Shown here: positions 3,943-53,282 of the stretch, in pieces | How the letters are laid out: each line of letters begins with the position of its first letter | Numbering within the stretch: the first letter of the stretch is position 1 | Assembly (NCBI GenBank): GCA_035274845.1 | Contig: DATENU010000022.1 | Location: 62,001 to 126,000 of the forward strand | Origin: Chthoniobacterales bacterium | GTDB taxonomy: Bacteria; Verrucomicrobiota; Verrucomicrobiia; Chthoniobacterales; UBA10450 | Length of the DNA: 64,000 nt | Direction: 5' to 3' | Notes under the pieces: generated by a model | What the model saw: the letters and a program-made list of their open reading frames with translations, nothing else | Database searches by the model: none | Told to the model about the DNA's origin: nothing | Made by a program: the position numbers and the translations under genes

Positions 3943-3945
3943 CCC

Positions 3946-15648: not shown

Positions 15649-15695
15649 TTCGCCAAAGGTGAAACCAGGAAGCCGCGTCTGACAATCCCAAAGAG

Positions 15696-15728: not shown

Positions 15729-15815
15729 TTCAGCCTGTAAATCGTTGGTCCTTACCGGTCATCCTCCTAGTGAAATGGTCATTGACCGCCTAATTTTTTT
15801 TGGAAACCCGCACGA

Positions 15816-15842: not shown

Positions 15843-15867
15843 AGTCAAAAGTCTAGGGGAACTGTGT

Positions 15868-19260: not shown

Positions 19261-19334
<74 letters not shown>

Positions 19335-19389
19335 AACTAGCTGCGATCAAGGACTTTGGATCGATGTTTGAAAACCATTCTTGCCAAAT

Positions 19390-32514: not shown

Positions 32515-33387
32515 ATGCAAATCCTCTTAAATGGCCTCATAGCCGGTTGCGCGATCTCGTTGCTCGCAGTGGCCTTTCAACTCGTCTATTTGCCGACGCG
32601 TGTATTTTTCATCGGCCTCGCCGGCCTTTATTCGCTCACGCCATATTTCGTCCGGGCGTGCCAGACGGTAGGGCTGTCACTCGCGCTCGGAATAGCAGTA
32701 GCCGTGGTTGCTGCGATCTTATTATCCGTTCTTTGCGAATGGATGAATCATGCGCCCCTCACACGGAATCGCGCTTCCGAGGGTGCTCATCTGATCTCAT
32801 CCCTCGGTATTTACATAGTGCTCGTTCAGACGGCAGCCATGATTTGGGGCAACGAGACGAAAACCCTGCGTACGGGTATCGATTCAACAATCCACTTCAG
32901 TGGCGCGGTGCTCACCTCGGCCCAATTCGTAACGGCCGGTGTCGCCGCAGCGATGCTGACAGCGTTCTGGATCCTACTTCGCACGACCACGATCGGACTA
33001 CGATTGCGCGCCTTGGCGGATAATCCGACACAATTCGCGCTCTTTGGTTACAACAACAATGCTCACAGACTGATCGCCTTTGCTCTGGGGGGAGCGTTCG
33101 CTGCCGCCAGTTCGTTGTTGACCAGTTACGACATTGGATTTGATCCATATACCGGGCTGCACGCAGTGCTTCTCGCGATAGTCGCCGTAATCATTGGTGG
33201 ACGTTACTCCTTCGCCGGACCTGCAATCGGCGGATTGCTGCTCGGCTTTGTTCGGGAGGAAGTGGTTTGGTATTTTTCGGCTCGTTGGCAAGAAGCCGCC
33301 ACGTTCGCGATCCTGGCATGCTTCCTTTTGCTCCGGCCGCAAGGCCTGTTTGGGCAACAGACGCGGCTTGAAGCAACTACTTCATGA
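32515..33387 (+). CDS. livH: branched-chain amino acid ABC permease, LivH type
   Basis: A protein of 290 residues from ATG 32515, after the purine-rich GGCGGGCGAA. The start MQILLNGLIAGCAISLLAVA, about eight helices and the conserved cytoplasmic loop (TTIGLRLRALADNPTQFAL) match LivH, one of two inner-membrane permeases of hydrophobic amino-acid or amide importers. It ends RPQGLFGQQTR, typical of the family. Its stop overlaps the LivM-type start by four bases. This opens a long co-directional array. Substrates of such systems range from Leu/Ile/Val to urea or short amides, so specificity is open. Confidence 0.85.
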   Translation: MQILLNGLIAGCAISLLAVAFQLVYLPTRVFFIGLAGLYSLTPYFVRACQTVGLSLALGIAVAVVAAILLSVLCEWMNHAPLTRNRASEGAHLISSLGIYIVLVQTAAMIWGNETKTLRTGIDSTIHFSGAVLTSAQFVTAGVAAAMLTAFWILLRTTTIGLRLRALADNPTQFALFGYNNNAHRLIAFALGGAFAAASSLLTSYDIGFDPYTGLHAVLLAIVAVIIGGRYSFAGPAIGGLLLGFVREEVVWYFSARWQEAATFAILACFLLLRPQGLFGQQTRLEATTS

Positions 33388-34283
33388 ACTACCTGCTTCA
33401 CCTTTTCATTTACTTCGACATCTATGTGATTGTCGCTCTTAGCCTCAATCTTCTTGTCGGCTATTGCGGGCTGCTCACGTTGGCTCACGCTGGTTTCTAT
33501 GCAGTCGGCGGCTATGTGTACGCTCTGCTCGCACTTAGACTCGACTGGGGTTTCATACCTGCGGTTGCTGTCGCCATTCTTATCGGCGGCTTGTTGAGTT
33601 TGACGGTTTCTCTGCCGGCGTGGCGGCTGAAAGGGGATTTCTTCGTGCTGGTCAGTCTCGCTGTCCAGGCGCTCATTTTCAGCGTTATCTACAACTGGTC
33701 TGATCCGGACTCGGCTCTCGGCTCATTCAGAAATCTTACGAACGGTCCGTTTGGGATTGCTGGAATACCGAAACCAAATGTTCTCGGATTCGAATTCGAC
33801 CATCCCGCCAGCTTCGCCGTTCTCGCTACTACATTGGCTGCATTCTGCGCTTTCATCATCTGGCGGCTAAAGAAGTCACCTTGGGGGCGTGTTCTCGTTT
33901 CGATGCGCGATGACGAACTCGCGGCCCGAACCTTGGGCAAGAACACACGTCTTTTGAAATTGCAGGCTGTCGCAATCTCAGCCGCAATGGTTGCAATTGC
34001 CGGAGCGCTTTATGCTGCCCATCTCAGCTATGTCGATCCAACGACGGCGTCTCTCGATGAGAGTATCTTGATGCTCAGCATGGTCATTGTCGGCGGAGCC
34101 GGCAATTTCCGCGGACCGCTGGTGGGCGCTTTAGTCCTCATTGCGCTTCCCGAACTTCTCCGCTTCACACACTTGCCCGGAGCGTTTGCAGCCAACCTGC
34201 GTCTCGGGACCTACGGCTTGCTTCTCATCCTGATGATGCATTTCCGCCCGCAGGGAATAGCCGGGCAATACCGCTTCAAATAA
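33384..34283 (+). CDS. livM: branched-chain amino acid ABC permease, LivM type
   Basis: A protein of 299 residues with about eight to ten helices. It has LSLNLLVGYCGLLTLAHAGF near the start, the LivM GHA-type motif region, and a cytoplasmic coupling loop SPWGRVLVSMRDDELAARTL that should contact the ATPase. It ends with MMHFRPQGIAG, as is usual for the family. It is overlapped with LivH by ATGA, and the ATPase gene follows after 27 bases. Together these form the membrane channel of the importer. Confidence 0.87.
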   Translation: MNYLLHLFIYFDIYVIVALSLNLLVGYCGLLTLAHAGFYAVGGYVYALLALRLDWGFIPAVAVAILIGGLLSLTVSLPAWRLKGDFFVLVSLAVQALIFSVIYNWSDPDSALGSFRNLTNGPFGIAGIPKPNVLGFEFDHPASFAVLATTLAAFCAFIIWRLKKSPWGRVLVSMRDDELAARTLGKNTRLLKLQAVAISAAMVAIAGALYAAHLSYVDPTTASLDESILMLSMVIVGGAGNFRGPLVGALVLIALPELLRFTHLPGAFAANLRLGTYGLLLILMMHFRPQGIAGQYRFK

Positions 34284-34310
34284 TTTGTCACCATCAAGCG
34301 GATCGCGAAC

Positions 34311-35912
34311 ATGATTACTCTAGTGGAAACACCAAGAGAACGACACGAGGCGACAGAATTGGATGCCGATCACGACGATCAATCAGGAGGGAAGATTCTC
34401 CTCTCCGCTCGTGGCTTGCGTAAGACTTTTGGCGGCGAGGTTGTTCTCAACGGACTCGATTTCGATCTGCACGAAGGTGAAGTCGTTCTATTGCGTGGCG
34501 AGAATGGCTCGGGAAAGACCACGTTGATCAATATCCTCACAGGAAATATCGAGCCCGATTCTGGCGCAATTCACTATAGCAGTAATGGATCATCGCGCGC
34601 TTATGAATTTCCACGACGGCTGTGGCAAGGGTTAGGTCCTCAAGATCATTTTCGGCCGGAATTCGTCGCCCAGAGCGGAATTGGCCGAACCTGGCAGGAT
34701 GTACGTCTGTTCAATTCTCAATCATTGCGGGACAACATTGCCGTCGGTGTTTCAGCCCAGCCAGGCGAGAATCCTTTGCGCACTCTATTTACTCCGCGAC
34801 ACACCCGCCGAGTAGAGCGCCAAGTCGGTCAGAAGGCTGACAAGATACTTGCCGATCTTGATCTTGGCGGACGCGAAGATTCTTCGGCGGATAAAATCTC
34901 GCTCGGACAATCCAAGCGGGTTGCCATCGCGCGCGCATTCGCAGCCGGCGCTCGATTGTTCTTCCTTGATGAACCGTTGGCCGGGCTGGACCGGCAAGGC
35001 ATCATCAACGTCCTCGCCTTGCTCGAGTCACTGATTCGCCAGCACAGGGTTACCGTTGTTGTTGTGGAACACGTTTTTAATCAAATTCATCTACACGGCC
35101 TTTTGACGACGGACTGGCTACTGGCGAATGGCAGGATTCAACGAACTGCCAGCGAAAAGATCATTGGAAATCGCAATACGCTAACGCCACAACATCGACC
35201 CGCCTGGTTCGACCTTCTCGTGCCGAGTCGGGCGGAAGTTTTGGAAGAAACTTTACCACGTGGGGCCATACTAACTCGAATTCGGTCTGGCAAGCGCGGC
35301 TCAGAATCCAGAAAAATCCTTGAGATTCGCAACCTAGTCGTGAATCGCGGTTCACACACCTCGATTGGTCTCGATGATGGACGTGAGATTTCTGGACTCA
35401 ATCTCGCACTTTACGAAGGCGAAACCGCCGTCTTGCAGGCTCCAAACGGTTGGGGGAAAACGACACTCGGCGAAGCGATCATAGGCCTTATTCCCATCGA
35501 TCGCGGCGAGATTCTATTCGACGGTCAGGACATTAAACAGCTGCATGTGTGGCAACGCGCTCGTGCAAGACTTCACTTCGTTCCCGCACGCAGCAATGTA
35601 TTTCCAACACTCACGGTCGAGGAATCTCTACGCGCGGCCGGCATCCAGGATGCCCCCCCGCACTTAAAACCTCTCTTACAGCGCACGGCAGCGCAACTTA
35701 GCGGAGGCGAGCGACAAAAACTCTCCCTCGCTTCAGTGCCAGCAAATAGCCGCCTCGTTGTGTACGACGAGCCTTTTTCAGCTCTCGATTCCGCTGCTCT
35801 GATGACTCACGCAAACACCATCGTCCAAGGGCATAATGCCAAATTGATTATGTTGCCCCAATCTGACGCACCGCTTTCCACGGCAAATGAAACCAATATG
35901 AACAGCGACTAA
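34311..35912 (+). CDS. fused LivG-LivF double ABC ATPase
   Basis: A protein of 533 residues with two ABC cassettes. The first (LivG-like) has Walker A GENGSGKT at 63-70, signature LSLGQSKR and Walker B RLFFLDEPLAGLD. The second (LivF-like) has APNGWGKT at 377-384, signature LSGGERQKL and LVVYDEPFSALD. LivG and LivF are normally separate genes, so this is a fusion, with a linker near residues 285-350. Catalytic residues look intact in both halves. It should energise the LivH/LivM pair. The binding-protein gene follows after two bases. Confidence 0.87.
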   Translation: MITLVETPRERHEATELDADHDDQSGGKILLSARGLRKTFGGEVVLNGLDFDLHEGEVVLLRGENGSGKTTLINILTGNIEPDSGAIHYSSNGSSRAYEFPRRLWQGLGPQDHFRPEFVAQSGIGRTWQDVRLFNSQSLRDNIAVGVSAQPGENPLRTLFTPRHTRRVERQVGQKADKILADLDLGGREDSSADKISLGQSKRVAIARAFAAGARLFFLDEPLAGLDRQGIINVLALLESLIRQHRVTVVVVEHVFNQIHLHGLLTTDWLLANGRIQRTASEKIIGNRNTLTPQHRPAWFDLLVPSRAEVLEETLPRGAILTRIRSGKRGSESRKILEIRNLVVNRGSHTSIGLDDGREISGLNLALYEGETAVLQAPNGWGKTTLGEAIIGLIPIDRGEILFDGQDIKQLHVWQRARARLHFVPARSNVFPTLTVEESLRAAGIQDAPPHLKPLLQRTAAQLSGGERQKLSLASVPANSRLVVYDEPFSALDSAALMTHANTIVQGHNAKLIMLPQSDAPLSTANETNMNSD

Positions 35913-35914
35913 TC

Positions 35915-37090
35915 ATGATGAATCCATCTTCCAAACGAAAATCGATTGGCATTTCAGCTCTCGCGGGATTTTTCGTCCTTTTCCTCGTTGGCAGTTGTAA
36001 CAAACAAACTTCCACGGAAGCGCAAAAGGAAACGGGCACTGACAAGATTCTCGTGGGATCTATTTTGGCGCTCACCGGACCAGCTGCGTCATACGGAGAG
36101 ATGATGCAACGCGGACTTCAGCTCGCGGAATCCGAGATCAACGCTTCAGGAGGGATCGGAGGTAAACAGTTGAGCGTTATTATCGAAGATTCACAGTTTT
36201 CGGCACCCAAGGCCGTCTCCGCATTTCAGAAACTGACTTCGGTGCAAAACGTCAAAGCGATTGTTGGGATTACTGGCAGCAAGATCGCTCTTCCAGTAGC
36301 CGAAGCGGCAAAATCAGGAAACTATCTCATCATTGATGCGCTTAGTACCGCGCCGGCTCTGACAGAGCGAGGGGGTCCTCGCTATTTCCGTGTCATCGCA
36401 TCGGATGCGTTGGCTGGGAAATACAATACCGACTGGGCAATTGAAGAGGGCATGAAAAAGCCTGCCCTCATCTATGTAGAAGACGAATGGGGGGCGAGTT
36501 ATCGGAACGCCCTTCAAACATATCTCAAATCGAAAGGGTTTCCTGATCCGTTGATTGAAGGCGTAGCCGCGGGAAGCCGGGACTTCCGCACTCAGCTTCA
36601 GAAAATTAAAGATAGCGTTTGCGATGTTGTCTTTCTCCTTACGTACAGCAACGAAGGAGCGCCCTTCGTTCAACAACTGCGTGAAGCTGGCGTCACTTCA
36701 CGAGTCTATGGCAGCGACAACCTTAGTTCGCCTGAGTTTACTGCCGTAGGCGCAACCGTTATCGAAGGCGTCCGCGTCGCCCTTCCATTGCCAACGGAAG
36801 GAACGGAGTACGACGAATTCGTCAAAAGGTTCAAGACCGAATTCGGAATGGACCCCGATGTGAACGCTCTTAAGAGCTACGACGCGCTAAACGTTGCCGC
36901 GAAAGGAATGAAAGAAGTCGGAACAGATCCAAACAAAATTGCCGACTATCTGCATTCGCCTCAGTTCTCGTATCGCGGCATCTCCGGCGAGATTCGCTTT
37001 GATCAAAACGGCGATTTAGTGAGTCAACAATATCGACGCCAGGTTTACCAAAACGGATCGTTGGTGCCTTGGAAGATGTCCAAAGAATAA
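35915..37090 (+). CDS. substrate-binding lipoprotein, LivJ/LivK type
   Basis: A protein of 391 residues. The lipoprotein signal is KRKSIGISALAGFFVLFLV followed by GSC, with Cys 27 or so as the lipid-modified residue. The mature protein is a type I periplasmic binding protein (Peripla_BP_6): ILVGSILALTGPAASYGEMM, GIGGKQLSVIIEDSQF, KALVYVEDEWG-like lobe hinges and the end RGISGEIRFDQNGDLV. It delivers ligand to the importer encoded just upstream. Ligand residues cannot be read with enough certainty to name the substrate. Its stop overlaps the methyltransferase start (TAATG). Confidence 0.87.
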   Translation: MMNPSSKRKSIGISALAGFFVLFLVGSCNKQTSTEAQKETGTDKILVGSILALTGPAASYGEMMQRGLQLAESEINASGGIGGKQLSVIIEDSQFSAPKAVSAFQKLTSVQNVKAIVGITGSKIALPVAEAAKSGNYLIIDALSTAPALTERGGPRYFRVIASDALAGKYNTDWAIEEGMKKPALIYVEDEWGASYRNALQTYLKSKGFPDPLIEGVAAGSRDFRTQLQKIKDSVCDVVFLLTYSNEGAPFVQQLREAGVTSRVYGSDNLSSPEFTAVGATVIEGVRVALPLPTEGTEYDEFVKRFKTEFGMDPDVNALKSYDALNVAAKGMKEVGTDPNKIADYLHSPQFSYRGISGEIRFDQNGDLVSQQYRRQVYQNGSLVPWKMSKE

Positions 37091-37872
37091 TGATAGCGGA
37101 TACGACATCGCGTTTCGCAGATGCCACGGCGGACATCACCGACCCAAAGAATCTCGAACTCGCGCAGGCAACGTTTAACGAGGAGTTGCTTTACGAAGCG
37201 ATCGTCTCGTTTGCGAGCGATTGGTTCGCCCGTGTACAACGACCTGCTCGAATTCTCGATCTCTGCGCCGCCACTGGGCTAACAGCCAAGAAAGTTTCGG
37301 ACGCTATTTCAACGGACTCGGTTACCCTCGTAGATAACAGCCCGCAAGCTTTAAGCGAGAGTCACGGACATTTCCCAACAAACCTTCCAGTTCGACGCTG
37401 TTGTGTCGATGCTGTGACTTTCACCAGCGACACACATTACGACATCATTCTGGCAAATTCAGCATATCACCACATAGAGGATGATCGGAAAGGGGCGTTT
37501 TTAAGGAATGCAACTTGCCTGTTGTCACGGGATGGCATCCTCATTCTGGGCGACCACTTTCTTCCGGCGTACGTAGACGAGGCGGGACATGCCCGCGCCA
37601 CCGAGCAATTCTATTGCGCCCTTGTCTCGGAACTTGAAACGCGAAACTCAAATCCACGCGCAATTGAAGTAATACGTAGCGCGGCGAATCACGGCGTTCG
37701 CTCAAACGGTGAATACAAGGTTTGCTGGAGTTATTTTCTTTCCAGCCTCGACTCAACTCGTCTACTACTACAAACATTCAAGCTTGTCTGGACGCATCCA
37801 TTGAGTCGGGCGAAACAACTCGTTGGTTCTGTGGCGAGCGTTCTCAAGGCCGATTTTAGGCCAGTTTCCTGA
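37090..37872 (+). CDS. class I SAM-dependent methyltransferase
   Basis: A protein of 260 residues from ATG 37090 (MIADTTSRFADATADITDPK). The Rossmann motif I is ARILDLCAATGLTAKKV, an acidic strand-2 end lies at SVTLVDNSPQAL, and motif IV-like YDIILANSAYHHIEDD is followed by the LLSRDGILILGDHF strand. This is the standard order of a Methyltransf_25-type enzyme. The acceptor is unknown. The start overlaps the stop of the binding-protein gene, so it is part of the importer transcript and may act on the imported substrate or a derivative. Confidence 0.75.
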   Translation: MIADTTSRFADATADITDPKNLELAQATFNEELLYEAIVSFASDWFARVQRPARILDLCAATGLTAKKVSDAISTDSVTLVDNSPQALSESHGHFPTNLPVRRCCVDAVTFTSDTHYDIILANSAYHHIEDDRKGAFLRNATCLLSRDGILILGDHFLPAYVDEAGHARATEQFYCALVSELETRNSNPRAIEVIRSAANHGVRSNGEYKVCWSYFLSSLDSTRLLLQTFKLVWTHPLSRAKQLVGSVASVLKADFRPVS

Positions 37873-37873
37873 A

Positions 37874-39538
37874 ATGGCCGCTAGAGCTGCAGAGCTTGAT
37901 TTACTTGACCGGCTCCAGGCCGGCGCCGGTTTTCGCAACGAGCGCGAAGCGCTCCAATTATTCGGAAGTCAGTCCGCCAACAACGTCGATTTGACTATTG
38001 GTGGCGAAATTATCAACACGTTGACTAACGGAACCGACGCGTGTTCCGAGGTGCTTTGGCTGGAGCCAGAATGTGCGGCCGCTTCCAAGTCAGATACCGA
38101 AAAGTCTGCACGAATGTGGCCCTTTGCCATGAAACATGCGTGTCAGAAAACAGTCGAAGCCGTCCACGAGCCTTTTCTTAAAGGCGAATCAGCGTGGATA
38201 CTAAAAACCAAGTACTGGTTCTCACTCAGCAGTATCATGGCAGCGGAACGCAGAATGGCGCTGGCGAACGCCAACGGTCAGCGTGGTTCACACCCAGAAG
38301 TTTTTCTGATTCTTCTCGATGGCGTGGCACCGGAGGCATTCCAAAAGTGGGAGCGGTTTCAGGGCGGACTCGTGGCGCTAGTCTATCGTGAAAATTTCAT
38401 ACCAATACTGGAGACCTGTACTGAAAAGCGATTTCTCTGCAGCATCATGCTTGAAGGCGATCCAGAAAAGGATGCCAAGTGTTTCAAGAATTTCTATGAC
38501 TGGCTCCAGGAGGTCCGGACCAACACATTTTCGGATCTTGGAGTCTATGCCGGTTTCAGAATGGGGGCGAAACAAGCCAAATTATGGGCCGCTCTCACAA
38601 CAGCGGTCAAACCTACAACGCTAACCGTTCTTGAATCCTTTTATGATCGGTTTCAAGCGCGCTATGCAGACCTAATTCGGCGAGCCGCGAGTGACGGACT
38701 AGAGGTCTTCTGGGAGGAAACGAAACACCTAAATCACGATACGATTGAAAGCGGTCAGGCAGATGAATTTTTGCGACGGTTTATCGATCAGCCTGGTACA
38801 GATTGGCCGAAGGGATTGGATGAAGCAACTGTTCGCGAGGCTCTCAAAACAATGTGTGGCCAAAACTGTGCATTCGCCTCAGGGGGGCAGCAGAAACCGA
38901 CAGAGAGCCTCACTACGTTGGGCGGTTTTTTCTTTCTCCTAGCTGCAATTGCTTCGAAATTTGGTTCGACCAATAATTGGTTGAAGAGGATTGAGATCGA
39001 GCTTCAGAACGGATACGATGCGCGCAATGATCATTTATTACCCGAACAAAATGACAAGATAGCGACAGCCGCTGCGCGATACCTCTTCAAACTGTTTACG
39101 CTCATATGCGAGCACCGTAAACCGACGTCTGTCATTGATCCGTTCTTGGTTCGTAAGGTTATTCTAAACCGCGACTATTTAGAGATTCATGTCGCACTGG
39201 ATTCCCAGAGTCTGTCCAAGTCGGTTGGATACGAGCTAAGCCGGTTAGTCTCAATCAAAACCGAATCTGACAATCCGACGCAACCAACAGACACAACAAT
39301 CCAAGCTCTAGATATTGCGTTATCGGATGACCAATACCACGCGGGGACCGTCGCGCAAAACATAGCAAGATTCGTGACGTTAGCCGCTATACGGGTAATC
39401 GCTCCCAATGTGGAGTGTCATCACGAGTTATTCTTTCCACCGTCGACTCTTCAACTGATCTCCAAACCAGAAAACACGGGTAACAGAGACGAAAAGAGGC
39501 TAATTCTACGTTTCAACAAATGCAAGACATCCTTGTAA
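37874..39538 (+). CDS. unknown 554-residue protein of the importer array
   Basis: From ATG 37874 (MAARAAELDLLDRLQAG), one base after the methyltransferase stop. The sequence is mixed alpha/beta with no signal peptide or membrane segment. Segments SHPEVFLILLDGVAPEAFQK and GGLVALVYRENFIPILETC suggest a nucleotide-binding-like or hydrolase fold, but no catalytic signature can be assigned. The middle part is charged and helical (FYDRFQARYADLIRRAASDG). It overlaps the following gene by 19 bases, so the two products are probably made in fixed ratio. I do not recognise the family. Confidence 0.6.
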   Translation: MAARAAELDLLDRLQAGAGFRNEREALQLFGSQSANNVDLTIGGEIINTLTNGTDACSEVLWLEPECAAASKSDTEKSARMWPFAMKHACQKTVEAVHEPFLKGESAWILKTKYWFSLSSIMAAERRMALANANGQRGSHPEVFLILLDGVAPEAFQKWERFQGGLVALVYRENFIPILETCTEKRFLCSIMLEGDPEKDAKCFKNFYDWLQEVRTNTFSDLGVYAGFRMGAKQAKLWAALTTAVKPTTLTVLESFYDRFQARYADLIRRAASDGLEVFWEETKHLNHDTIESGQADEFLRRFIDQPGTDWPKGLDEATVREALKTMCGQNCAFASGGQQKPTESLTTLGGFFFLLAAIASKFGSTNNWLKRIEIELQNGYDARNDHLLPEQNDKIATAAARYLFKLFTLICEHRKPTSVIDPFLVRKVILNRDYLEIHVALDSQSLSKSVGYELSRLVSIKTESDNPTQPTDTTIQALDIALSDDQYHAGTVAQNIARFVTLAAIRVIAPNVECHHELFFPPSTLQLISKPENTGNRDEKRLILRFNKCKTSL

Positions 39539-40464
39539 TCGACGGCGACTCTGAACGTGCCACCGCTTGGGCTACGCGTCTCCGCGCGAGCATTCAGGAG
39601 ATCAATGTCTGGCTAATCACGGAATCCGATCTGGCCAGAAAAGGAAAGGCCCGAAACGTAGCGCGATGCTTAAATGAGTCGTGCCCTCAGCCGGATGTTG
39701 TGCTCATCCACTATCGAGACAACAAGCCTCACATGAGGCCCGCGCATATTTCGCTTCCATACACAACATTCTGGTATGGAGGCGCAGGTGCGGAACCCGA
39801 GACAACGAAGGGGTGGCACATCGTGTGTTCCCTAAATCGAGGCGATGATGTCACAACCAAGATTTCTGTTCCTGAAATTAGGAAGCTTCTGCTTTGGGCG
39901 TTTGATCCAAAGCGCGATCCGGAAAAGCCACCAAGCCTCTTAAGGCTCTCATCTCCGAGTGAGGCGTTGCCCGCGCTATCTATGTTATGCCAGGGCTATC
40001 TCGCCGCATTCGCCGGCTCAAACAGTGATCAACACTCAGACGACCTGGATCGCGCGCTGGATCAGATGCAGTTCTCGGAAATGCCTCGCGAGTTTGCCAG
40101 CGAAATCGCGAATCGATTTACGCAAATACGACAAAAGACTTGGTGGAGGTCTCCATTTGAGAAAGCGAATCTAACAGGGGAGACCCGAACGGAGGCGCAG
40201 GATGCGGGTTGCAGCGACATTCCGAAGCCAATATTGGATCTGCTTAAAACAATTGAGGAAGGTGATGGACAACAGACGCTTGGCCATAGCAACAACCTCT
40301 CCGATAACGATTCACAGAAACTGCTGGCAGAGGCGGACTTAGTGGCAAAAGCCTTCTGCGAGGTAGAGAAACTGCTCCTTAAAAGGAGCAACGAGCTCCT
40401 TCGGCCGAATGAAACTGGGGGCGGAACGTCAAATACTGTTACGCAGGGCAAAAGGGCAACATGA
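39520..40464 (+). CDS. degenerate receiver-like protein
   Basis: A protein of 314 residues. The first 120 read like a CheY fold: DILVIDGDSERATAWATRLR contains the strand-1 end with acidic residues, and PDVVLIHYRDNKPHMRPAHI occupies the strand-3 region, with His in place of the phospho-acceptor Asp. The C-terminal half is helical and Lys/Glu-rich (KLLAEADLVAKAFCEVEKLL). It overlaps both neighbours (19 and 4 bases). A phosphorylation-independent adaptor is a reasonable guess. It is one of three receiver-like products in the array. Confidence 0.52.
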   Translation: MQDILVIDGDSERATAWATRLRASIQEINVWLITESDLARKGKARNVARCLNESCPQPDVVLIHYRDNKPHMRPAHISLPYTTFWYGGAGAEPETTKGWHIVCSLNRGDDVTTKISVPEIRKLLLWAFDPKRDPEKPPSLLRLSSPSEALPALSMLCQGYLAAFAGSNSDQHSDDLDRALDQMQFSEMPREFASEIANRFTQIRQKTWWRSPFEKANLTGETRTEAQDAGCSDIPKPILDLLKTIEEGDGQQTLGHSNNLSDNDSQKLLAEADLVAKAFCEVEKLLLKRSNELLRPNETGGGTSNTVTQGKRAT

Positions 40465-42781: not shown

Positions 42782-42814
42782 ACGGCGGCGCCGTAAGGCT
42801 ACGGGATTCTCCGA

Positions 42815-44359: not shown

Positions 44360-44373
44360 CCTACTGAACCAGC

Positions 44374-45534: not shown

Positions 45535-45676
45535 CAGCAACCAGCTACGTAAACTGTGCGATCCCTTGCTGGTATTCGGCGACTTTCTTGGACGCGGACG
45601 CGTGCGTATCCTAAACAGTCACCGTGCGGCCAGATTACGCTTCGTAGTTTGTTCCAGAAACTATTAGATTCTGGCT

Positions 45677-46384
45677 GTGTCGATCGCAAAGTTAAAGGCA
45701 GAAAAGTTCGGCCGCACCTTCATTGTGGGCGACGGCGTATATGCACGCTCTCTCGCACACGTACTTGGCGCGTATTGGATCGTCTCAGAGTCAAGTCCCG
45801 ACACCGCAATAGGAATTGATGGGCGAGCACCCGGCGGGCGATCCACGGTTGTCTTAGTACTGGCCTCGAATGACACGGGCTCGACCGTTGTTCGAAGGCA
45901 CCGAGATCTCTGGCTGAGGATTCCCGGCGAAGCGCTGGCTTGGATTATCGTTGCCGAAAACGAGCAGCAGCGCATTCAAATACGCAATCAAGACGTGTAC
46001 GGACGGGCCGATGGCACTGAAACCTTCGGCGCGGAATCATGGCGCAAACGTTATGCCATCTTATCAAGAGTGTGCAGACTTAGCACCGTGCTCAACCACC
46101 GCAGGGCGTTGATGCCAATGATGCGTTCAACGTGGGAGCGAAGCGATGTCGGTGCCGCGACAATACAAGAGCTGCTGCGCAGAATTGAAGCCGCAATCAC
46201 CGGCAACCCTGGGTCCCTTGTGGAGCAACTCACGAGCGGACTACCGTTCTTGGTTTGGGAGTGTTTTTGCGATCATCTTTATGCCAACAAGATTCGAGAT
46301 TGGATGTCGCGTGACAAACAGTGTACCGCATGGCTTCTGGAGGGAAGACAGCTCCTCATGGAGCTTGGACACGAAAACAAATGA
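45677..46384 (+). CDS. unknown protein preceding the receiver gene
   Basis: A protein of 235 residues from GTG 45677 (MSIAKLKAEKFGRTFIVGDG). The first half has strands typical of an alpha/beta sandwich (RTFIVGDGVYARSLAHVLGA, TVVLVLASNDTGSTVVRRHR, LAWIIVAENEQQRIQ) and could be another degenerate receiver or Rossmann-like unit. The second half is helical and Trp/Arg-rich (FLVWECFCDHLYANKIRDWM). No family is recognised. Its stop overlaps the start of the receiver gene by four bases, so the two act together in all likelihood. Confidence 0.55.
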   Translation: MSIAKLKAEKFGRTFIVGDGVYARSLAHVLGAYWIVSESSPDTAIGIDGRAPGGRSTVVLVLASNDTGSTVVRRHRDLWLRIPGEALAWIIVAENEQQRIQIRNQDVYGRADGTETFGAESWRKRYAILSRVCRLSTVLNHRRALMPMMRSTWERSDVGAATIQELLRRIEAAITGNPGSLVEQLTSGLPFLVWECFCDHLYANKIRDWMSRDKQCTAWLLEGRQLLMELGHENK

Positions 46385-47598
46385 GATATTCGATCCGCAT
46401 CTTAATCGCGGAGGACATCAAAGAGTGGCGTACCGCGCTGCGAGAGGAGTTGCACGATCGTTTCCACGCCATTCGCCACTATCGCGAGGTCGAAATCGAT
46501 ACAGTTGAAGACGGCGACCAAGCGATCGATTACGTAAGAAAACGGAAATATGATCTCGCTGCTCTCGATGTTGGCTTGGGGAAAACACCTGATCCAAGCG
46601 GACTGGACGTTTTGGAGATGATCGAGGAACAAAACGCCGCCTTTTTTGTGGCGCTAGTAACCGGAGCCGCCACCGACTCGTCTCTTGTGAAACGTTACGG
46701 ACCGGACGCAGCGGCTGTTATGCAGGTTGGCTTGCAGTGCGAAGCGGCCAAACGTTTCGCGCCCGACAGAATCCGAGTGGTGAACAAGCCACCGACCGGA
46801 GGGTTCGAAAAACGGTGGGGCGCCGTGAAAGCTGCTCTGGACAGTGTGATAGAAGCATTCGAGTACGCCGCTGCATGGCGATATGTCTTCCGTCCAATAA
46901 ATCAAGGCGGCAAATTATGGGAAGCCCGTTGGAATGGTGGTCCATACGTCCGGATCGGGGACATGGCCGGCTTCGCCGAAGTTCGTTACATCCTCAAGAG
47001 CGTCGATCGTGAAGACGAACTCACAGTCAATGAAATGATGGACCGAGTGAGAGAATCCCTCAGTCGGCGCAGAGGAGGTGGCAAGCGTAAGGGAAAAGCG
47101 AAGGCAGGCTCAGAGCCGGACACAGCTGCAAAACAAACTTTGGTGCTTGACGATGTGGTCAAAATGCTCCGCGAGGGCTGGCGAAGCGGCGAGATTACCG
47201 AAGATGCCTTGGCAGATTGGCAGGAATACCTAGGCTCCAAACAAATAGAGAAGGTTGGACAATTCTTTCAGCGCAAGGGAGGCGACGAAACACTAGTGAA
47301 AGCGTTGAATGGCATGCTCAAAGACGCGACTAAGAACGGTGAGAAATTTGATGGCAAGGTTCGCTTGGTTCCGCGAAGGCCCGGCAATCAAAACCGCGCC
47401 GACGATGCTGAAGATCCTAATCGTGAGCGGAACCTAGGAGCATTCCGACAGCAGTGGAGGCGGGTTAAGGCAAGGCTTTCAGAGGTAGGCTTAGAAGGAA
47501 TGGCGGAACATTTCGAAGCAACGATTGACCGCGGGGACCGCAACCCGGGCCGTTGCCCATACGATGCCAACCTCGCTGTCCGATGGGTGCTGGATTGA
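46381..47598 (+). CDS. response regulator with unknown C-terminal domain
   Basis: A protein of 405 residues from ATG 46381. Residues 4-140 are an intact receiver: SIRILIAEDIKEWRTALREE with E11-D12, phospho-acceptor D63 in YDLAALDVGLG, T94 in ALVTGAATD and K136 in RVVNKPPTGG. The loop after D63 is slightly extended. The C-terminal 260 residues are not a known DNA-binding output: a basic GGGKRKGKAKAG linker, then helical segments (VVKMLREGWRSGEITEDALA). No histidine kinase lies in the array, so the phosphodonor must come from elsewhere. It is the last gene of the first co-directional run. Confidence 0.72.
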   Translation: MRYSIRILIAEDIKEWRTALREELHDRFHAIRHYREVEIDTVEDGDQAIDYVRKRKYDLAALDVGLGKTPDPSGLDVLEMIEEQNAAFFVALVTGAATDSSLVKRYGPDAAAVMQVGLQCEAAKRFAPDRIRVVNKPPTGGFEKRWGAVKAALDSVIEAFEYAAAWRYVFRPINQGGKLWEARWNGGPYVRIGDMAGFAEVRYILKSVDREDELTVNEMMDRVRESLSRRRGGGKRKGKAKAGSEPDTAAKQTLVLDDVVKMLREGWRSGEITEDALADWQEYLGSKQIEKVGQFFQRKGGDETLVKALNGMLKDATKNGEKFDGKVRLVPRRPGNQNRADDAEDPNRERNLGAFRQQWRRVKARLSEVGLEGMAEHFEATIDRGDRNPGRCPYDANLAVRWVLD

Positions 47599-47664
47599 AT
47601 CGTTTGGGTGACCTTCACTGAGTCGGCGGCCCCGCGTTTCGCACCGGTCCCGCTGAGGCAGATT

Positions 47665-47703
47665 TTGTCACGCGCTCGCGCGGTTTCGTCACGTTTATCA
47701 CGT
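47665..47703. promoter_or_regulatory. triple GTCACG-type repeat before the secreted-protein gene
   Basis: Three related motifs, TTTGTCACG, TTTCGTCACG and TTTATCACG, lie in the 40 bases just before the start codon at 47705. The first includes TTTGTCACGC, identical to the right arm of the inverted repeat upstream of the importer operon. They could be sites for a shared regulator, or chance in a CG-rich leader. Confidence 0.3.
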
Positions 47704-47704
47704 G

Positions 47705-48616
47705 ATGAAAACAAACAAACTTCACCTCACTGGGTTTACTCTCTCACTCGCGCTCGCAACGGCGCTCGTCACTCCGTGCAGAGCTGCTGAGCTAAACAAA
47801 GAAGCGCTCGGCGTCGCAAAGCCAGCCTTCAGCGTGTTTCTGATCGACGACGAAACAGGGGAGGAACTGACGACCAAACATGGCATCCGTCCCCTCGCTG
47901 CAAGTGATCTTGAAGCCCTGATCAACGTCGTGCTTCGCGGGAGTACTCCGGTGAGGTTGCTCCATCAGGCAGTTGACGAGGATTCCGCAGATAATGCCTT
48001 GGCCCGGATGGATTTCCATCCTTACGGCGGCGGACAGCCGCCCAAAGCACCGTCCCCAGGACTCCCTTTGCGCCAACTATCCGAAGAGATGAAGACCTAC
48101 AGAGCAGTGCGAGGGGAATGGCAACGCGGGATTCGCGCCTACCGCACAAACGTAGTCGCCGGGGTCGAAAGATTCATCAAGGGAATCGCCGCTACGCAGG
48201 CTGAAGTCTCGGAGCGTTTCGATCGGATGTTGGCCGAGCGTAATGGGCGCGATTTCAACAGAAGTGATATCCTGACGTGTATCACGACAGCTAACCGCCT
48301 GCTCGGATCGGAAGGCAGGCGATTTCTGGTACTCAATACAGACGCAGAAGATTTGCCAGCCCACCGTCAGCCGCGCAGAACAGCGCTGACCGTTCAGGAA
48401 CTCGACTCACAAATAGAACTGATTTTCGTTAATACTAGCCACCTCCCAGACCAGAGCCTGCTTTTCCACGGTCTCGCAAACCCGGTTCATCACGCAGACT
48501 CGATGCAAGCAGCGATGGACATCATTGTTGGGTCTCTCAACACGGAAATGGCCGGGGAGGACAGCGAGACGGATCGTGTCACGAGTGCCCTGCCTGATGT
48601 CACGCCAGGTAGTTAA
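47705..48616 (+). CDS. secreted unknown protein, first gene of the AAA-ATPase module
   Basis: A protein of 303 residues from ATG 47705. The signal peptide is MKTNKLHLTGFTLSLALAT, ending near CRA-AEL, so the product is periplasmic or exported. The mature protein has an alpha/beta character (PAFSVFLIDDETGEELTTK; SDILTCITTANRLLG; RRFLVLNTDAEDLP), with a DxxT-like strand order that loosely recalls von Willebrand A domains, but a complete MIDAS motif is not visible. The next gene encodes a membrane protein 15 bases downstream. No family is recognised. Confidence 0.55.
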   Translation: MKTNKLHLTGFTLSLALATALVTPCRAAELNKEALGVAKPAFSVFLIDDETGEELTTKHGIRPLAASDLEALINVVLRGSTPVRLLHQAVDEDSADNALARMDFHPYGGGQPPKAPSPGLPLRQLSEEMKTYRAVRGEWQRGIRAYRTNVVAGVERFIKGIAATQAEVSERFDRMLAERNGRDFNRSDILTCITTANRLLGSEGRRFLVLNTDAEDLPAHRQPRRTALTVQELDSQIELIFVNTSHLPDQSLLFHGLANPVHHADSMQAAMDIIVGSLNTEMAGEDSETDRVTSALPDVTPGS

Positions 48617-48631
48617 CCAACCCCAAAAACC

Positions 48632-49888
48632 ATGCCGAACCAAATCACATCGAAATACGAAGTCGCCCGTCACCAAGATGCAAACACAGCACGGCAAGTC
48701 CGTGCGCGCCACCGCGTGATCGGTGCCGTGCGCAAGGGGGTGGAACACGCGCTCGGACTCGATCGTCAAGCCGGAGAACTGGAACGGCAGGTCGCTGCTT
48801 ACGATGCCGACACGGACGGATTCCAGCAACGAGTCCATAGCGACCACGTCGCATGGAATCTCCGCCTCATCTTTTTCAGTGCGATTCTACTTTATGTTTT
48901 CCTTGAGTTAATCTCGTCGGGAGACATCGCCGAATTTCTGGCGCATCAAATGGCTCCGCTCTTCCGACTCGACACGGCGGGCGAAACACCGATGTGGCTG
49001 CGCCGCCTCGCTGGAGCGGCTTTCATCGGAGGAATGTTGGGAGCTACGTTGCTTATCAAATTCGTGACAACGTGGTTCGCGGGTGTGTTCAGGGCCGCGC
49101 GAGCGTCAACCATGCCCGGCGAACATCTCCGCTACTGGAGTCTCACCGGAGCGATATGGGGAATGTATTTTGCCAAAGTGGTGTATGTCGGCGCGGCGGC
49201 CTGCCTCTACGTATGGCTGTTCGGATTCGCTCAGCAACGCGCGGCGTTGATGGCAGACATCGCTACGGAACAGAAACAGGTCGTAGAATCGACCGACCTC
49301 GGAATTAAGATCCAAAGGGGCGCCGTAGAAACAGAGACAGTAGCTGTCGCCAAACCCGCAGGGACTGTCGATTCAGCCGCAACCACACGCTTGGCTGGCG
49401 CATCCGGCGTCTTTTATGCGGTGATAGTTCTTCTGCATGCGCTTGTCTTGTTGCTGCCAACAGAAGGTTTTGCGCGAGAGCTTGAATTTGCTCATTTCAA
49501 ACGGGGCAAGGCAAACGCACGAGCCACCGCCTTCCACGCAGAGGAAGAGAGGACGCTCCGCGATATTTATGAACGGATTCGGCTTGCGCCGGCCGACTAC
49601 CAGCAAGACCTCGTTTATTCGGCAGAGCCGGTAGTTCCAAAAATCAATAAATTGTACGGCAGCCGGGTTATTCGAATTGCCGGGCGTGATCAGAATTCCT
49701 CACTTGATGGCAATGAGCCGGGCGGGGATGCCACAAGGCTAGCGCCGCTGTCTCCCCGGACGCCGAACGGGCCGACCGGCGATGGCACGGCAGCAGTGGC
49801 AGAAAGCAGCCGCGACAACAGTGCCCCGATCGACCAGGTGCCCGCTACGAATTGGGACACCATTTTTCCGGGAGCGCAACACAGCTAA
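48632..49888 (+). CDS. unknown multi-pass membrane protein
   Basis: A protein of 418 residues. The cytoplasmic head is charged and helical (RKGVEHALGLDRQAGELER). Four hydrophobic segments follow: LRLIFFSAILLYVFLELI, LAGAAFIGGMLGATLLIKF, AKVVYVGAAACLYVWLFGF and GVFYAVIVLLHALVLLLPTE. A long polar C-terminus, Pro/Asn/Ser-rich toward its end, completes the protein. A coiled segment between helices 3 and 4 may be periplasmic. It could place the neighbouring secreted protein and the AAA ATPase on opposite faces of the inner membrane. Function unknown. Confidence 0.6.
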   Translation: MPNQITSKYEVARHQDANTARQVRARHRVIGAVRKGVEHALGLDRQAGELERQVAAYDADTDGFQQRVHSDHVAWNLRLIFFSAILLYVFLELISSGDIAEFLAHQMAPLFRLDTAGETPMWLRRLAGAAFIGGMLGATLLIKFVTTWFAGVFRAARASTMPGEHLRYWSLTGAIWGMYFAKVVYVGAAACLYVWLFGFAQQRAALMADIATEQKQVVESTDLGIKIQRGAVETETVAVAKPAGTVDSAATTRLAGASGVFYAVIVLLHALVLLLPTEGFARELEFAHFKRGKANARATAFHAEEERTLRDIYERIRLAPADYQQDLVYSAEPVVPKINKLYGSRVIRIAGRDQNSSLDGNEPGGDATRLAPLSPRTPNGPTGDGTAAVAESSRDNSAPIDQVPATNWDTIFPGAQHS

Positions 49889-49925
49889 ATCAAACGAGAC
49901 GCCGTCCTAACCCACATCCACTACC

Positions 49926-50690
49926 ATGAGCGAAATTCGCAGGACAACCACCATCGACAAAATTGACGTACCACCCCGCGTACCCTTGATTTCATTCAGC
50001 GAAGTGATCACTGCCATCGGCTGGATCGCATATCAGGGAACGAAGTTTGCTGTAAAAGGGGCGATCACGGGCAGTACGCTAGCCTACAAAGGCGGCAAAG
50101 CTTTGGCAGCCGCCGCGAAGGAATCGCGCGAGCGAAGCCTGAGTCTTCACCAGATCACTCAACTGGTTGATTCAGCGGCGACGGCAAAACATGCCGTGGT
50201 TGCCCTCGCCGCTGCCCCTGGCATCGAGTTGCCACGGCAGCAGGCGGAAGCCATCGCGGCCAAGCTGAAAGTGCTGGTTGCCAAAAACGACAAGGCAGGC
50301 CTCACCGCAGTTGCTCGAGATCTGGTCCTAGGCAGACAGGATCGCCTTCGCGCAACGCTGGTGCCTCTTGTTGCGGAGTCGTGTGAAGCAAGCGGTTTTG
50401 TGGCAAAGACGCTAAGCACCGAAAACGGACTAATCGCAGCTAACAGAAAAGGAACGCGACAAAGCATCGCGATTGAAGTGGCCAAGGGAAAAGAAGGCGG
50501 CATCCAATTGCACTTCGACGCCGAGGGATTCGAAGGCGGTACATGCGTCCAGGCGCTCGATGCAATTCAACATGAATTGCGGACTCGCGGCGTTCATTGC
50601 GACCTGCGCGAACGGCGGCGCAAACACCGCCGCCCAGTGTTTGATCGGAGCAGAGTAGGAAACCATCTCGTTATGCAAACGGCCCGATGA
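49926..50690 (+). CDS. unknown protein with DUF2997-like C-terminal segment
   Basis: A protein of 254 residues. The N-terminus has an amphipathic or weak membrane-associated region (VITAIGWIAYQGTKFAVKG). The middle is a helical Ala-rich domain. The C-terminal segment (AIEVAKGKEGGIQLHFDAEG, FEGGTCVQALDAIQHEL) resembles DUF2997, a small domain found next to Ycf46-type AAA ATPases and DUF1257 in other bacteria, but the match is by eye. Its stop overlaps the start of the AAA gene (ATGA), which supports a physical partnership. Confidence 0.52.
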   Translation: MSEIRRTTTIDKIDVPPRVPLISFSEVITAIGWIAYQGTKFAVKGAITGSTLAYKGGKALAAAAKESRERSLSLHQITQLVDSAATAKHAVVALAAAPGIELPRQQAEAIAAKLKVLVAKNDKAGLTAVARDLVLGRQDRLRATLVPLVAESCEASGFVAKTLSTENGLIAANRKGTRQSIAIEVAKGKEGGIQLHFDAEGFEGGTCVQALDAIQHELRTRGVHCDLRERRRKHRRPVFDRSRVGNHLVMQTAR

Positions 50691-52519
50691 GCGCAAACGC
50701 CAAAGACAACATGAGCATACCCACCGAACGCACAGCCACCGCAATTGACCCGATCATCAACGCGTACCGGTCCGGCCATCAGACCGTCCTTCTGTCTGGT
50801 CGATCGCTGTTTGATCTACACATCAATGAGCGTGGCGAATTACGTCCGCTGCGTCACACGTTGATCCGACGCGCACGAGAGGAGTTCGGCATGACTACGC
50901 TTCTCTACAATCTCGCCTTGGGACCTCGCTGGAGTTGGGAAGGTTTCGACGGCAAAGAAAGGCGCGACTTCGAATCAAAGTTGGAAGCGGCGAGGGTTCC
51001 TCTATATGAGGAAGTCCGCAACAACATCACAGGGCGTCCCCCTCACGAACGTGCGGTCGATTTGCTGAAGTCGATCCAACAGACCATCGAGCAGGGCTCG
51101 GATATTCCGCCCGTGTTGGCGCTTTTGGAATGGGGTGAAGACTTGGTGCCGGATTCGGAACGCGGAGCAATCAACGATTGGATCATGCAAATGAATGAGC
51201 TGCTGGTCATGATAGGCAGCGATTACTTGCGCCGGAGGCATCCCTTTCTCATGGTCTTGGCGGGCACTCCGGAACGGATGGACCGTCGTGTTGTGAACAG
51301 CCTTCAACCTGTTCATCTCGCGCAACCCGAACGCGACGAGAAGACACTCTTCATCCAAATGTTGCGCGGGATGCCGCATCTCAAAGGCGCTTCCTACGAG
51401 GAAGGCTTAGACGATTCCGCGGTAGCTAATCTAACGGCTCGGACGCCAAACCAGAGCCTCGAGGAAGCATTCTTCGAATCCGATCGCACCGGTCGTCCCA
51501 TCACGCACACTCGCATTGTCGAACGCAAACGCGCGGATGTTGTCGCCTTATCGGAAGGCACAATGACACTTCTTGATGCCGAGCGAGTCGCCGGGATCAA
51601 GCTTGTGGGACGAACCATAGAACATGTTCTGACTCTCCTATTAAGATGGGCGCAAGGTCTCAAACAAGGCGATCCGCTCACCCCAATGAATATTCTCCTC
51701 GCAGGAGCACCTTCGTCGGCTAAGACCGATCTGGCCCTATTCGCCGCACTCATGTCTCAAACGCCAGCCTATGCACTCTTAAGTCCAAAAGGCTCGTTAG
51801 TGGGCCAAACTGAAAAACTGGTTCGTCTGCTTTTCCGTATTTTCAAAGAACTGAGTCCAGCATTCGGCGTGATTGATGAAATTACCGAGGCATGGCAAAC
51901 GCAGCGAAACAGCACAAATCTCGATTCTGGCGCGTCGGATTCAGTACTCGCTGAAATGCTAACCGCACTCTCGGATTCGTCGCGAGCAGGCCGCACGCTG
52001 CTGATAGCCACTACAAACTGTCCGTGGAAAATTGGCGCGGCAGCTGCGGACCGATTTATGTTCGTACCCGTTCTTTCAGCACTGGAAGAAGATTTCTCTG
52101 CGATCCTATGTGCCATCGGCGAAAGGCTGCTTCCAGACGCGGACTGGGATGCGAGCAGCGCCGAGGTCAAAAACGCAGCTACTGTATTTTATCGCAAGAA
52201 CGCAACTCCTAGGACAATGCGCTCAATCCTTTCCTCCAAGATCGCCAGCGGAGAGGAGCGAGTGCTGCGGCACCTACTTCCCAAGGCAGCTGCAGATTGT
52301 GCACCTCGCCATCCCCGAGATCGAGCGAGTGCCGAATACGCAGACTTGTACGCGATCAGCGTTTGTTCAGACTTGGCCTTACTTCCCTGGCACAATCGAA
52401 TCTTTGACTATCCATTACCGGCTTACCTAAAGGGAATCGTGAGCGAAACCGACGGCACGATTGATATCGATCGGTTGAATCGTCGGATTGAGGAGCTCAG
52501 ACCCAATGTCAACGTCTGA
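50687..52519 (+). CDS. AAA ATPase, Ycf46-like, with atypical Walker A
   Basis: A protein of 610 residues. The N-terminal 270 residues (INAYRSGHQTVLLSGRSLFD; NDWIMQMNELLVMIGSDYL; HPFLMVLAGTPERMDRRVV) look like the degenerate AAA-like module that precedes the active one in Ycf46-type proteins. The second module has Walker A LLAGAPSSAKTDL near 337-347, where Ala replaces the Gly before the catalytic Lys, Walker B AFGVIDEI near 391-396, and a sensor region LLIATTNCPWKIGAAAADRF. ATP binding is still plausible. It may remodel the partner proteins encoded just upstream. It overlaps the next gene by 14 bases. Confidence 0.65.
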   Translation: MSANAKDNMSIPTERTATAIDPIINAYRSGHQTVLLSGRSLFDLHINERGELRPLRHTLIRRAREEFGMTTLLYNLALGPRWSWEGFDGKERRDFESKLEAARVPLYEEVRNNITGRPPHERAVDLLKSIQQTIEQGSDIPPVLALLEWGEDLVPDSERGAINDWIMQMNELLVMIGSDYLRRRHPFLMVLAGTPERMDRRVVNSLQPVHLAQPERDEKTLFIQMLRGMPHLKGASYEEGLDDSAVANLTARTPNQSLEEAFFESDRTGRPITHTRIVERKRADVVALSEGTMTLLDAERVAGIKLVGRTIEHVLTLLLRWAQGLKQGDPLTPMNILLAGAPSSAKTDLALFAALMSQTPAYALLSPKGSLVGQTEKLVRLLFRIFKELSPAFGVIDEITEAWQTQRNSTNLDSGASDSVLAEMLTALSDSSRAGRTLLIATTNCPWKIGAAAADRFMFVPVLSALEEDFSAILCAIGERLLPDADWDASSAEVKNAATVFYRKNATPRTMRSILSSKIASGEERVLRHLLPKAAADCAPRHPRDRASAEYADLYAISVCSDLALLPWHNRIFDYPLPAYLKGIVSETDGTIDIDRLNRRIEELRPNVNV

Positions 52520-53282
52520 AGCGACATTACCATCTAGAGCAGCCAGCCGCGTCGCAGAATACGTCGATGTGTTCATGAATGAACCGCTAGCGTTTCGCGG
52601 ACAACAGTTGCGCGGCACAGGCCCCATTCACGAATTCGAAGGGTTGCTCGCCAAGCGCTGTGGATTTCCGTTTTGCGTCTCCACCTGCAATGCTACGACT
52701 GCGCTGCTTGTCGTTGCGATAGCGGCCAAACTTCGTGGACGCGAGGTAATCTGTCCGCCAAATAACTGGGCGGCCACCTTCGGGCTATTAGAGTTCGCGG
52801 GCGCAAAGCTCATCCGTGCTGAGGCCGACGAACTGCGGAACATTTGTCCAAGGTCCGTTGAAAGTCTCATGTCAGCAGCGACAGCGGCCGTCCTCGCCGC
52901 CGATTGGAAGGGAGAGCGGCATCAGGTGGAGATGATCGCAGTCGCCTGTCGCCACAACGGATGCCTCTATATTGAAGACACTTCTTACATTCCGCCTGAA
53001 CGCTCGGAAAGCGACAGAGCTTCGGTCGCTGACGTTCAAGTAATCTCGTTCGGACCGGGAAAACCCCTCAGCCTCGGTGAAGGCGGGGCGATACTCACCC
53101 GCTCCTCGGCAATTTACGAGACCGCCGTGGCCTTAAGCCAGCATCCTGAACGGTGCCGCGCCGAAGGCATCAAGCCGATGTCAGGTCATCAGTTTCTAAA
53201 TGCCCGAATGCATCCGCTCGCAGCGATTCTGGGCGTCGAGCTGTTGAAACAACAAGCAAACTCACCGAGCCGATTTGTCTGA
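52506..53282 (+). CDS. DegT/DnrJ/EryC1-type aminotransferase, C-terminally short
   Basis: A protein of 258 residues from ATG 52506. Conserved parts of sugar aminotransferases are present: FRGQQLRGTGPIHEFEGLLA, FCVSTCNATTALLVVAIA, PPNNWAATFGLLEFAGAKLI, D158 in YIEDTS and K186 in ISFGPGKPLSLGEGGAIL. It stops soon after GVELLKQQANSPSRFV, while family members usually run to 370-400 residues, so the C-terminal small domain is missing. Either the gene is truncated or the product depends on another subunit. The 750 bases downstream hold no continuation that I can recognise. Confidence 0.65.
   Translation: MSTSEATLPSRAASRVAEYVDVFMNEPLAFRGQQLRGTGPIHEFEGLLAKRCGFPFCVSTCNATTALLVVAIAAKLRGREVICPPNNWAATFGLLEFAGAKLIRAEADELRNICPRSVESLMSAATAAVLAADWKGERHQVEMIAVACRHNGCLYIEDTSYIPPERSESDRASVADVQVISFGPGKPLSLGEGGAILTRSSAIYETAVALSQHPERCRAEGIKPMSGHQFLNARMHPLAAILGVELLKQQANSPSRFV

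Follow-up and report, generated by a model that had tools for sequence, protein, structure and literature searches.

We analysed a 64,000-nucleotide stretch of DNA from a Chthoniobacterales bacterium (assembly GCA_035274845.1, contig DATENU010000022.1, positions 62,001 to 126,000 of the forward strand), which is called the window here, and in particular a 21-kb run of plus-strand genes at 32515-53282. An original prediction, made from the letters alone, had taken this run as one array joining an amino-acid-type importer to several enzymes, receivers and an AAA module. Comparison with other genomes indicates instead that two horizontally acquired systems lie next to each other in the run, unit A (32515-47598) with the importer and unit B (47705-53282) with the AAA ATPase. 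The idea of a single system fails because unit B recurs elsewhere without the importer. Tentatively, and with slightly less than an even chance of being right, unit A is read as a mobile importer-coupled signalling system and unit B as a separate membrane-linked twin-AAA machine. The parts of both units belong to known families. Their combination is new to the open-access text that was searched, in which no description of it was found.

Eighteen plus-strand open reading frames (ORFs) lie between 32515 and 53282. The original prediction counted 17, all of which had been placed at or near the right coordinates and on the right strand. At most junctions, neighbouring genes overlap slightly or are no more than 37 bases apart. 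Two gaps are larger, 142 bp (45535-45676) and 106 bp (47599-47704), and a simple scan for plus-strand sigma-70-like promoters gave no match in either of them. The gaps split the array into three runs. The first (32515-45534) contains the importer, enzymes and proteins of no known family, the second (45677-47598) contains one uncharacterised protein and a receiver protein, and the third (47705-53282) contains a vWA-like protein, a membrane protein, a small protein, the AAA ATPase and a DegT enzyme. The first two runs make up unit A, with the following genes (SAM, S-adenosylmethionine; PLP, pyridoxal phosphate).

32515-33387, plus: permease 1, Liv-type, LivH-like (Pfam BPD_transp_2, 2.9e-27)
33384-34283, plus: permease 2, Liv-type, LivM-like (Pfam BPD_transp_2, 7.8e-40)
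34311-35912, plus: fused LivG-LivF-type protein with two ABC ATPase domains (ABC_tran, two stretches)
35915-37090, plus: Liv-type periplasmic binding protein (Peripla_BP_6, 3.2e-55)
37090-37872, plus: class I SAM methyltransferase, accessory enzyme (Methyltransf_25, 3.1e-10)
37874-39538, plus: soluble protein without known family, placed by position only, in the operon place of the 539-, 633- and 975-residue proteins of the relatives
39520-40464, plus: LCQGYL-motif family protein (blastp and shuffle z scores to relatives, shared motif)
40461-41225, plus: possible methyltransferase, accessory enzyme (only SAM_MT, E 0.02, below the family cut-off)
41222-42781, plus: Cys/Met metabolism-type PLP enzyme with an N-terminal extension, accessory (Cys_Met_Meta_PP, 2.5e-17)
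42815-44359, plus: uncharacterised protein without a Pfam match, with a receiver-like C-terminal stretch by eye
44374-45534, plus: possible DUF3800 protein (E 0.12, below the cut-off)
45677-46384, plus: uncharacterised protein, with a likeness by eye, not significant, to the C-terminal part of the Nostoc protein N_521
46381-47598, plus: receiver domain with a C-terminal region, probable output protein (Response_reg, 2.9e-9)

Family searches bore out much of what had been predicted for these proteins. The full Liv-type importer was confirmed by Pfam, with two BPD_transp_2 permeases, ABC ATPases in one fused protein and a Peripla_BP_6 protein, which is the composition of a Liv/HAAT importer. The Cys/Met-type PLP enzyme was also confirmed, as were the DegT-like enzyme and the AAA ATPase of unit B. 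Of the two predicted methyltransferases, 37090 passed and 40461 did not. Only 46381-47598 passed among the three proposed receivers, and 39520 and 42815 were without a match. The DUF3800 assignment of 44374 was not confirmed at the family cut-off.

Unit A was searched for with its fused double ATPase (34311) as the marker. A profile of this protein, built from two sequences and run on 230 genomes of the phylum, matched only the window and two genomes, G226 and G071, at E <= 1e-60. The fused ATPase was absent from ten further genomes of the G071 family. When 72,556 plasmids were searched by tblastn (E <= 1e-40), one record was found, a conjugative plasmid of Nostoc. Viral contigs contained no relatives of unit A or unit B. 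The array was present beside the marker in all three independent hits (Nostoc plasmid, G226 and G071). On the Nostoc plasmid, the importer genes are followed by proteins of 975, 485, 521 and 304 residues. In G226 and G071, the importer is followed by soluble proteins of no known family (633 or 539 and 499 or 535 residues), a protein that carries LCQGYL or a variant of this motif, a protein of 196 or 174 residues and a receiver/sigma-54-activator protein. The last of these ends both arrays and is 49% identical between the two. The order shared by the window and the three relatives is the importer, large soluble proteins of no known family, the 39520 (LCQGYL) family and a receiver-type output. 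At the level of sequence, these four clusters, three of which are from one phylum and most of whose middle genes are linked by position only, show that the importer, the 39520 family and the receiver output belong together, in a layout that recurs in two phyla with different enzymes inserted. The claim that the parts of the 21-kb run form one system stood for these genes, which recur together on the Nostoc plasmid and in the two genomes of the phylum, and did not stand for the AAA set and the DegT enzyme, which form a separate five-gene module.

The importer proteins are conserved to different degrees. Permease 1 is 52-54% identical to its same-position homologues in Nostoc (52%), G226 and G071, permease 2 is 64% identical to the Nostoc and 61% to the G071 homologue where aligned, and the fused ATPase is 44-53% identical to the three relatives (Nostoc, 44%). 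In contrast, the binding protein (24-29%; Nostoc, 29%) is much more diverged than the permeases (52-64%), as expected if the ligands differ, though binding proteins diverge faster in general. Downstream of the importer, the 39520 protein matches Nostoc N_521 with a blastp E of 3e-5 and a z of 8-11 against shuffles, and the LCQGYL-family members of G071 and G226, with which it has the motif in common, with a z of 3.8 and 2.9. The receiver part of 46381 matches Nostoc N_304 with a z of 11.5-12. The 42815 protein has a short weak match to the receiver part of the G071 protein G071_642 (E 0.034).

Several other candidate links were tried and rejected. The homology of 37874 to the 539-, 633- and 975-residue proteins and that of 42815 to the 485-, 499- and 535-residue proteins were not significant, and these proteins correspond by synteny only. 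The proposal that 45677 is the C-terminal half of N_521 was rejected since the similarity was not significant. A structure model of 42815 from a single sequence was uninformative (pLDDT 38) and was discarded. A neighbourhood search with the unknown proteins themselves, as had been proposed, found nothing when 37823 and 42815 were used as direct queries, and it was the fused ATPase that worked. The 37823 query gave nothing in relatives, plasmids or genome contigs, 42815 nothing in the host order, plasmids or viral contigs, and 44374 nothing in plasmids. The 46381 query gave nothing useful, and the PLP enzyme gave generic relatives only.

Some neighbours of the unit A clusters were also recorded. 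In G226 (L038/L039), genes divergent from the importer include a sigma-like gene and genes for a membrane protein of vWA type and for a protein whose GGTGAG motif is tubulin-like. A related sigma-like gene precedes the G071 importer, Nostoc has a weak sigma-70 region 4 match, and none was seen in the window. Downstream of the G071 array (L041, 3767-7048) lies a 1093-residue protein with a receiver match and with HD- and CYTH-like stretches by eye.

Unit B consists of the last five genes of the run.

47705-48616, plus: secreted or membrane-anchored vWA-like protein (homologue in genome G938, 2e-19; fold model)
48632-49888, plus: membrane protein with about four hydrophobic segments (hydropathy; same position in three other loci)
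49926-50690, plus: small protein with a possible DUF2997-like C-terminal stretch (five-member alignment; weak hhalign match to a DUF2997 protein, P 0.026)
50687-52519, plus: twin-AAA ATPase (Pfam AAA, 2.6e-10; 1e-54 to G938)
52488-53282, plus: short DegT-type PLP enzyme (DegT_DnrJ_EryC1, 1.9e-29; 1e-25 to G938)

When the AAA ATPase was used in tblastn, the Arthrobacter plasmid pZXY24 was matched, which encodes an exported protein, a membrane protein, a protein of about 250 residues, an AAA protein and a DegT protein in the same order. A genome scan found the same five genes in Pseudolysinimonas yzui. By profile search, the five-gene order was found in G938, another genome of the host's phylum, with blastp values to the window of 2e-19 for the exported protein, 1e-54 for AAA and 1e-25 for DegT, and the last three genes were found on a short contig of G647. 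No Liv importer was seen beside unit B in pZXY24, Pseudolysinimonas, G938 or G647. Judged from these matches, unit B is an independent five-gene module that also occurs in Actinomycetota, including a plasmid, and in the host's phylum. For the AAA/DegT half of the run, genes were thus found elsewhere without the importer, the outcome that the original prediction had named as counting against it, and 47705-53282 is better described as a separate conserved module than as part of one array. A Rhizobium match of the AAA search proved to be a CDC48-type protein when its sequence was read, and was discarded.

The 50687 ATPase appears to have two AAA copies, of which the N-terminal one is degenerate. 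The C-terminal copy passes Pfam, the N-terminal copy was judged by eye, and the profile alignment spans both halves: over most of its length, the 50687 family could be aligned with an AAA family of Verrucomicrobiota type (profile probability 99.9%). Its Walker A motif is GAPSSAKT, without the usual Gly before Lys, whereas the Actinomycetota relatives keep a GPPGNGK-type motif. The DegT enzyme keeps the catalytic Lys and lacks the C-terminal domain; it has 234-264 residues in the window and G938, versus about 340-356 in Actinomycetota. A model of 47705 from three sequences reached a mean pLDDT of 62, and its leading PDB matches were mostly vWA-type folds with weak E-values (>= 0.001). The small protein may share the DUF2997 domain with a locus on a Citrobacter IncC plasmid (L008, 6491-9079), where an AAA ATPase has a DUF2997 gene nearby.

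Around the actinobacterial copies of unit B, a matrixin-like metalloprotease gene directly follows DegT in two cases (L010, 12131-13252, by Pfam; L015, about 3700-4633, by eye). To the left of unit B, Pseudolysinimonas has an ATP-grasp gene with an ATPgrasp_Ter match on the minus strand (L010, about 2302-4260), and pZXY24 has nucleotidyltransferase, HIT and inositol-phosphate synthase genes (L002, 2645-7714).

The whole stretch from 32515 to 53282 is clearly foreign DNA, a low-GC3 island (GC3, GC content at third codon positions). It is called foreign because its GC3 is low (0.51-0.61, versus 0.72-0.76 in four genes well outside the array) and because the sampled relatives lack the marker genes that were tested. 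No match was found for the 37823 query in 58 relatives, for 42815 in 213 genomes of the host order, for the fused ATPase 34311 in the host genus at E <= 1e-30, or for the AAA protein 50687 in 288 genomes of the phylum at E <= 1e-12. The features left of the array are as follows.

19261-19334, minus: tRNA-Phe (tRNA call)
19381-20622, plus: tyrosine integrase adjoining tRNA-Phe (Phage_integrase, 1.1e-17)
26982-28787 (OloB) and 28784-30727 (OloA), minus: Olokun-like defence pair (PADLOC; OloB 3.3e-20, OloA 1.1e-14)

OloA and OloB are adjacent, as in Olokun, and divergent from the array. A 32-bp repeat of the tRNA-Phe end occurs at 15697-15728 and 19262-19293 (31/32 identical). The two copies are probably attachment-site remnants of a small element, and the island's right end showed no such copy. 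The interval 14347-16761, left of the integrase, contains two minus-strand genes, one with a TIR domain and the other with a weak match to a TIR effector. A plus-strand gene immediately to the right of the array (54030-54542) has a Pfam Tae4 match, resembling a type VI secretion amidase effector.

In the proposed mechanism, the binding protein of unit A would capture an amino-acid- or peptide-like molecule and the importer would carry it into the cytosol, where the large soluble proteins would act as its sensors and relay the signal to the receiver output. Hydropathy gave no convincing transmembrane helix in the signalling proteins of unit A in the window, and so the ligand would have to be imported. 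The accessory enzymes would make or modify the ligand or a related product. Those of the window are one confirmed methyltransferase, one possible methyltransferase and one Cys/Met PLP enzyme. The G071 operon contains a SagD-type YcaO, a SagB dehydrogenase and a ThiF protein, which would tailor a peptide, and which give indirect support to the predicted modified amino-acid-derived signal. The G071 YcaO is over the Pfam cut-off (6e-29) and below the curated cut-off of TIGR03604 (1.7e-34), the SagB dehydrogenase is above the curated cut-off of TIGR03605, and the best matches of the ThiF protein are ThiF/MoeB models, not the C protein of azole-peptide (TOMM) clusters. The pair of YcaO cyclodehydratase and SagB dehydrogenase that marks TOMM clusters was found in the G071 cluster only, and YcaO had no Pfam match among the window proteins. 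A possible precursor peptide in G071 is the product of a 57-residue ORF, which is preceded by a strong ribosome-binding site and whose tail is rich in Cys and Ser (CESSSACSRPGR). No convincing precursor was seen in the gaps of the window, Nostoc or G226. The Nostoc 975-residue protein has at most a weak methyltransferase signal; an NRPS-like (non-ribosomal peptide synthetase) protein is encoded near the Nostoc array on the other strand. Unit B probably remodels a membrane or protein substrate, which its DegT partner would modify.

A bolder version, which we consider speculative and rather improbable, is that unit A represents a hitherto undescribed class of mobile self-signalling systems. The Liv-type importer would re-import a tailored amino-acid or peptide signal, a soluble multi-protein relay would lead to receiver-type or sigma-54-activating outputs, and swappable enzymes with a fast-diverging binding protein would give each copy a private signal. 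Several results weigh against the main reading of unit A as a signalling system. The accessory enzymes differ in every cluster and none was recognised in G226, so that biosynthesis is not a core feature. The candidate precursor peptide is one ORF in one genome. No exporter was identified inside the arrays, though a self-made extracellular signal would need one. No kinase match was found by Pfam in 37874 or the matching proteins of the relatives, nor are these proteins mutually significant, and the GHKL/HATPase-like stretch in the 633-, 539- and 975-residue proteins was seen by eye without Pfam support. Of the two-component parts, the receiver is present (46381-47598), and Pfam found no HisKA/HATPase kinase in the uncharacterised proteins of the window or the matching proteins of the relatives.

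Other explanations were weighed against these results. Unit A could be a nutrient sensor. An environmental amino acid would then enter through the Liv importer and its flux would be reported by the soluble relay, in the manner of transporter-coupled two-component systems, and the enzymes would break down what is imported. Amino acids are the usual cargo of Liv importers, and pairings of a transporter with a receiver protein are known. The 41222 enzyme has methionine gamma-lyases among its family relatives (E 9e-10 to their structures), and Cys/Met PLP enzymes often degrade sulfur amino acids. However, the G071 enzymes are of the peptide-tailoring SagB/SagD type rather than catabolic, and the rarity and mobility of unit A, on an island and a conjugative plasmid, are unusual for a nutrient system. 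We regard this explanation as a real possibility but a doubtful one. A conflict system, either anti-phage or inter-bacterial, is unlikely. Here the importer and relay would respond to an alarm molecule, or to a compound made by a competitor, by setting off an effector, for example the possible DUF3800 protein. This would suit the defence-rich surroundings, with the directly adjacent Olokun-like pair and the TIR genes and integrase nearby, as well as the ThiF protein of G071 and the rarity and mobility of the array. No effector (nuclease, pore or NADase) was identified within unit A, however, PADLOC gave no relevant match for its proteins, and DUF3800 is below the cut-off.

It is very improbable that unit B is the execution module of a single co-regulated system spanning the whole run. 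The genes of the run lie on a single strand with short gaps and similar base composition, and AAA or vWA proteins are also found near other unit A clusters. Those proteins, however, did not match unit B by blastp at E 0.01, the junction of the two units is the 106-bp gap, and complete unit B copies without the importer occur in two phyla.

As importer-coupled signalling, unit A resembles several known systems in part. It has the strong permease, ATPase and Peripla_BP_6 matches of HAAT/Liv branched-chain amino acid importers, but its ATPases are fused in one protein and it lies within a mobile array of signalling and enzyme genes. With imported-peptide quorum sensing (Opp and RRNPP) it would share an extracellular ligand, an importer dependent on a binding protein and cytosolic sensing, and one cluster has a candidate precursor peptide. 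Unlike those systems, it has a Liv importer and receiver-type outputs, peptide enzymes occur in one cluster only, and no TPR receptor was found, as no Pfam TPR family matched the uncharacterised proteins of unit A. Transporter-coupled two-component systems, for example Pst-PhoBR, likewise combine importer genes with receiver outputs (receiver or receiver/sigma-54-activator in unit A), but unit A is without a recognisable membrane histidine kinase and has several soluble proteins of no known family between importer and output. The SagD-type YcaO and SagB dehydrogenase of G071 are those of SagB/SagD azole-peptide clusters, but the clusters of the window, Nostoc and G226 showed no such enzymes.

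For unit B, the closest comparison is with PspA operons that encode a protein with two AAA domains, the N-terminal copy being inactive, and for which membrane remodelling was proposed (PMC11237479). The unit B ATPase aligns with the Verrucomicrobiota-type AAA family, of which the members at L028 and L029 lie near PspA-like genes. In contrast to these PspA/Snf7-linked operons, unit B contains DegT and an exported vWA-like protein, and no PspA match was found among the genes scanned around it. The arrays at L026, L028 and L029, in which genes for a PspA-like protein and an AAA ATPase accompany one for a vWA lipoprotein-like protein, resemble the operons of that paper. The vWA-MoxR ternary conflict systems (PMC7159879) also pair an AAA ATPase with a vWA-type partner, but the unit B ATPase matches Pfam AAA and CDC48-type models rather than MoxR, and no VMAP-like third partner was seen. 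The main text of PMC7159879 contains no DegT, sigma factor or ABC transporter.

If the import-and-relay interpretation of unit A is true, it would represent private-channel communication or sensing outside the Opp/RRNPP paradigm of Gram-positive bacteria, in a system spread by mobile elements over at least two phyla and found beside anti-phage genes. It would then become testable whether mobile islands carry their own chemical signals that coordinate defence or transfer. In unit B, a DegT enzyme occurs in a new combination, together with an exported vWA-like protein and a twin-AAA membrane machine, and this combination is found both on islands of the host's phylum and on an actinobacterial plasmid.

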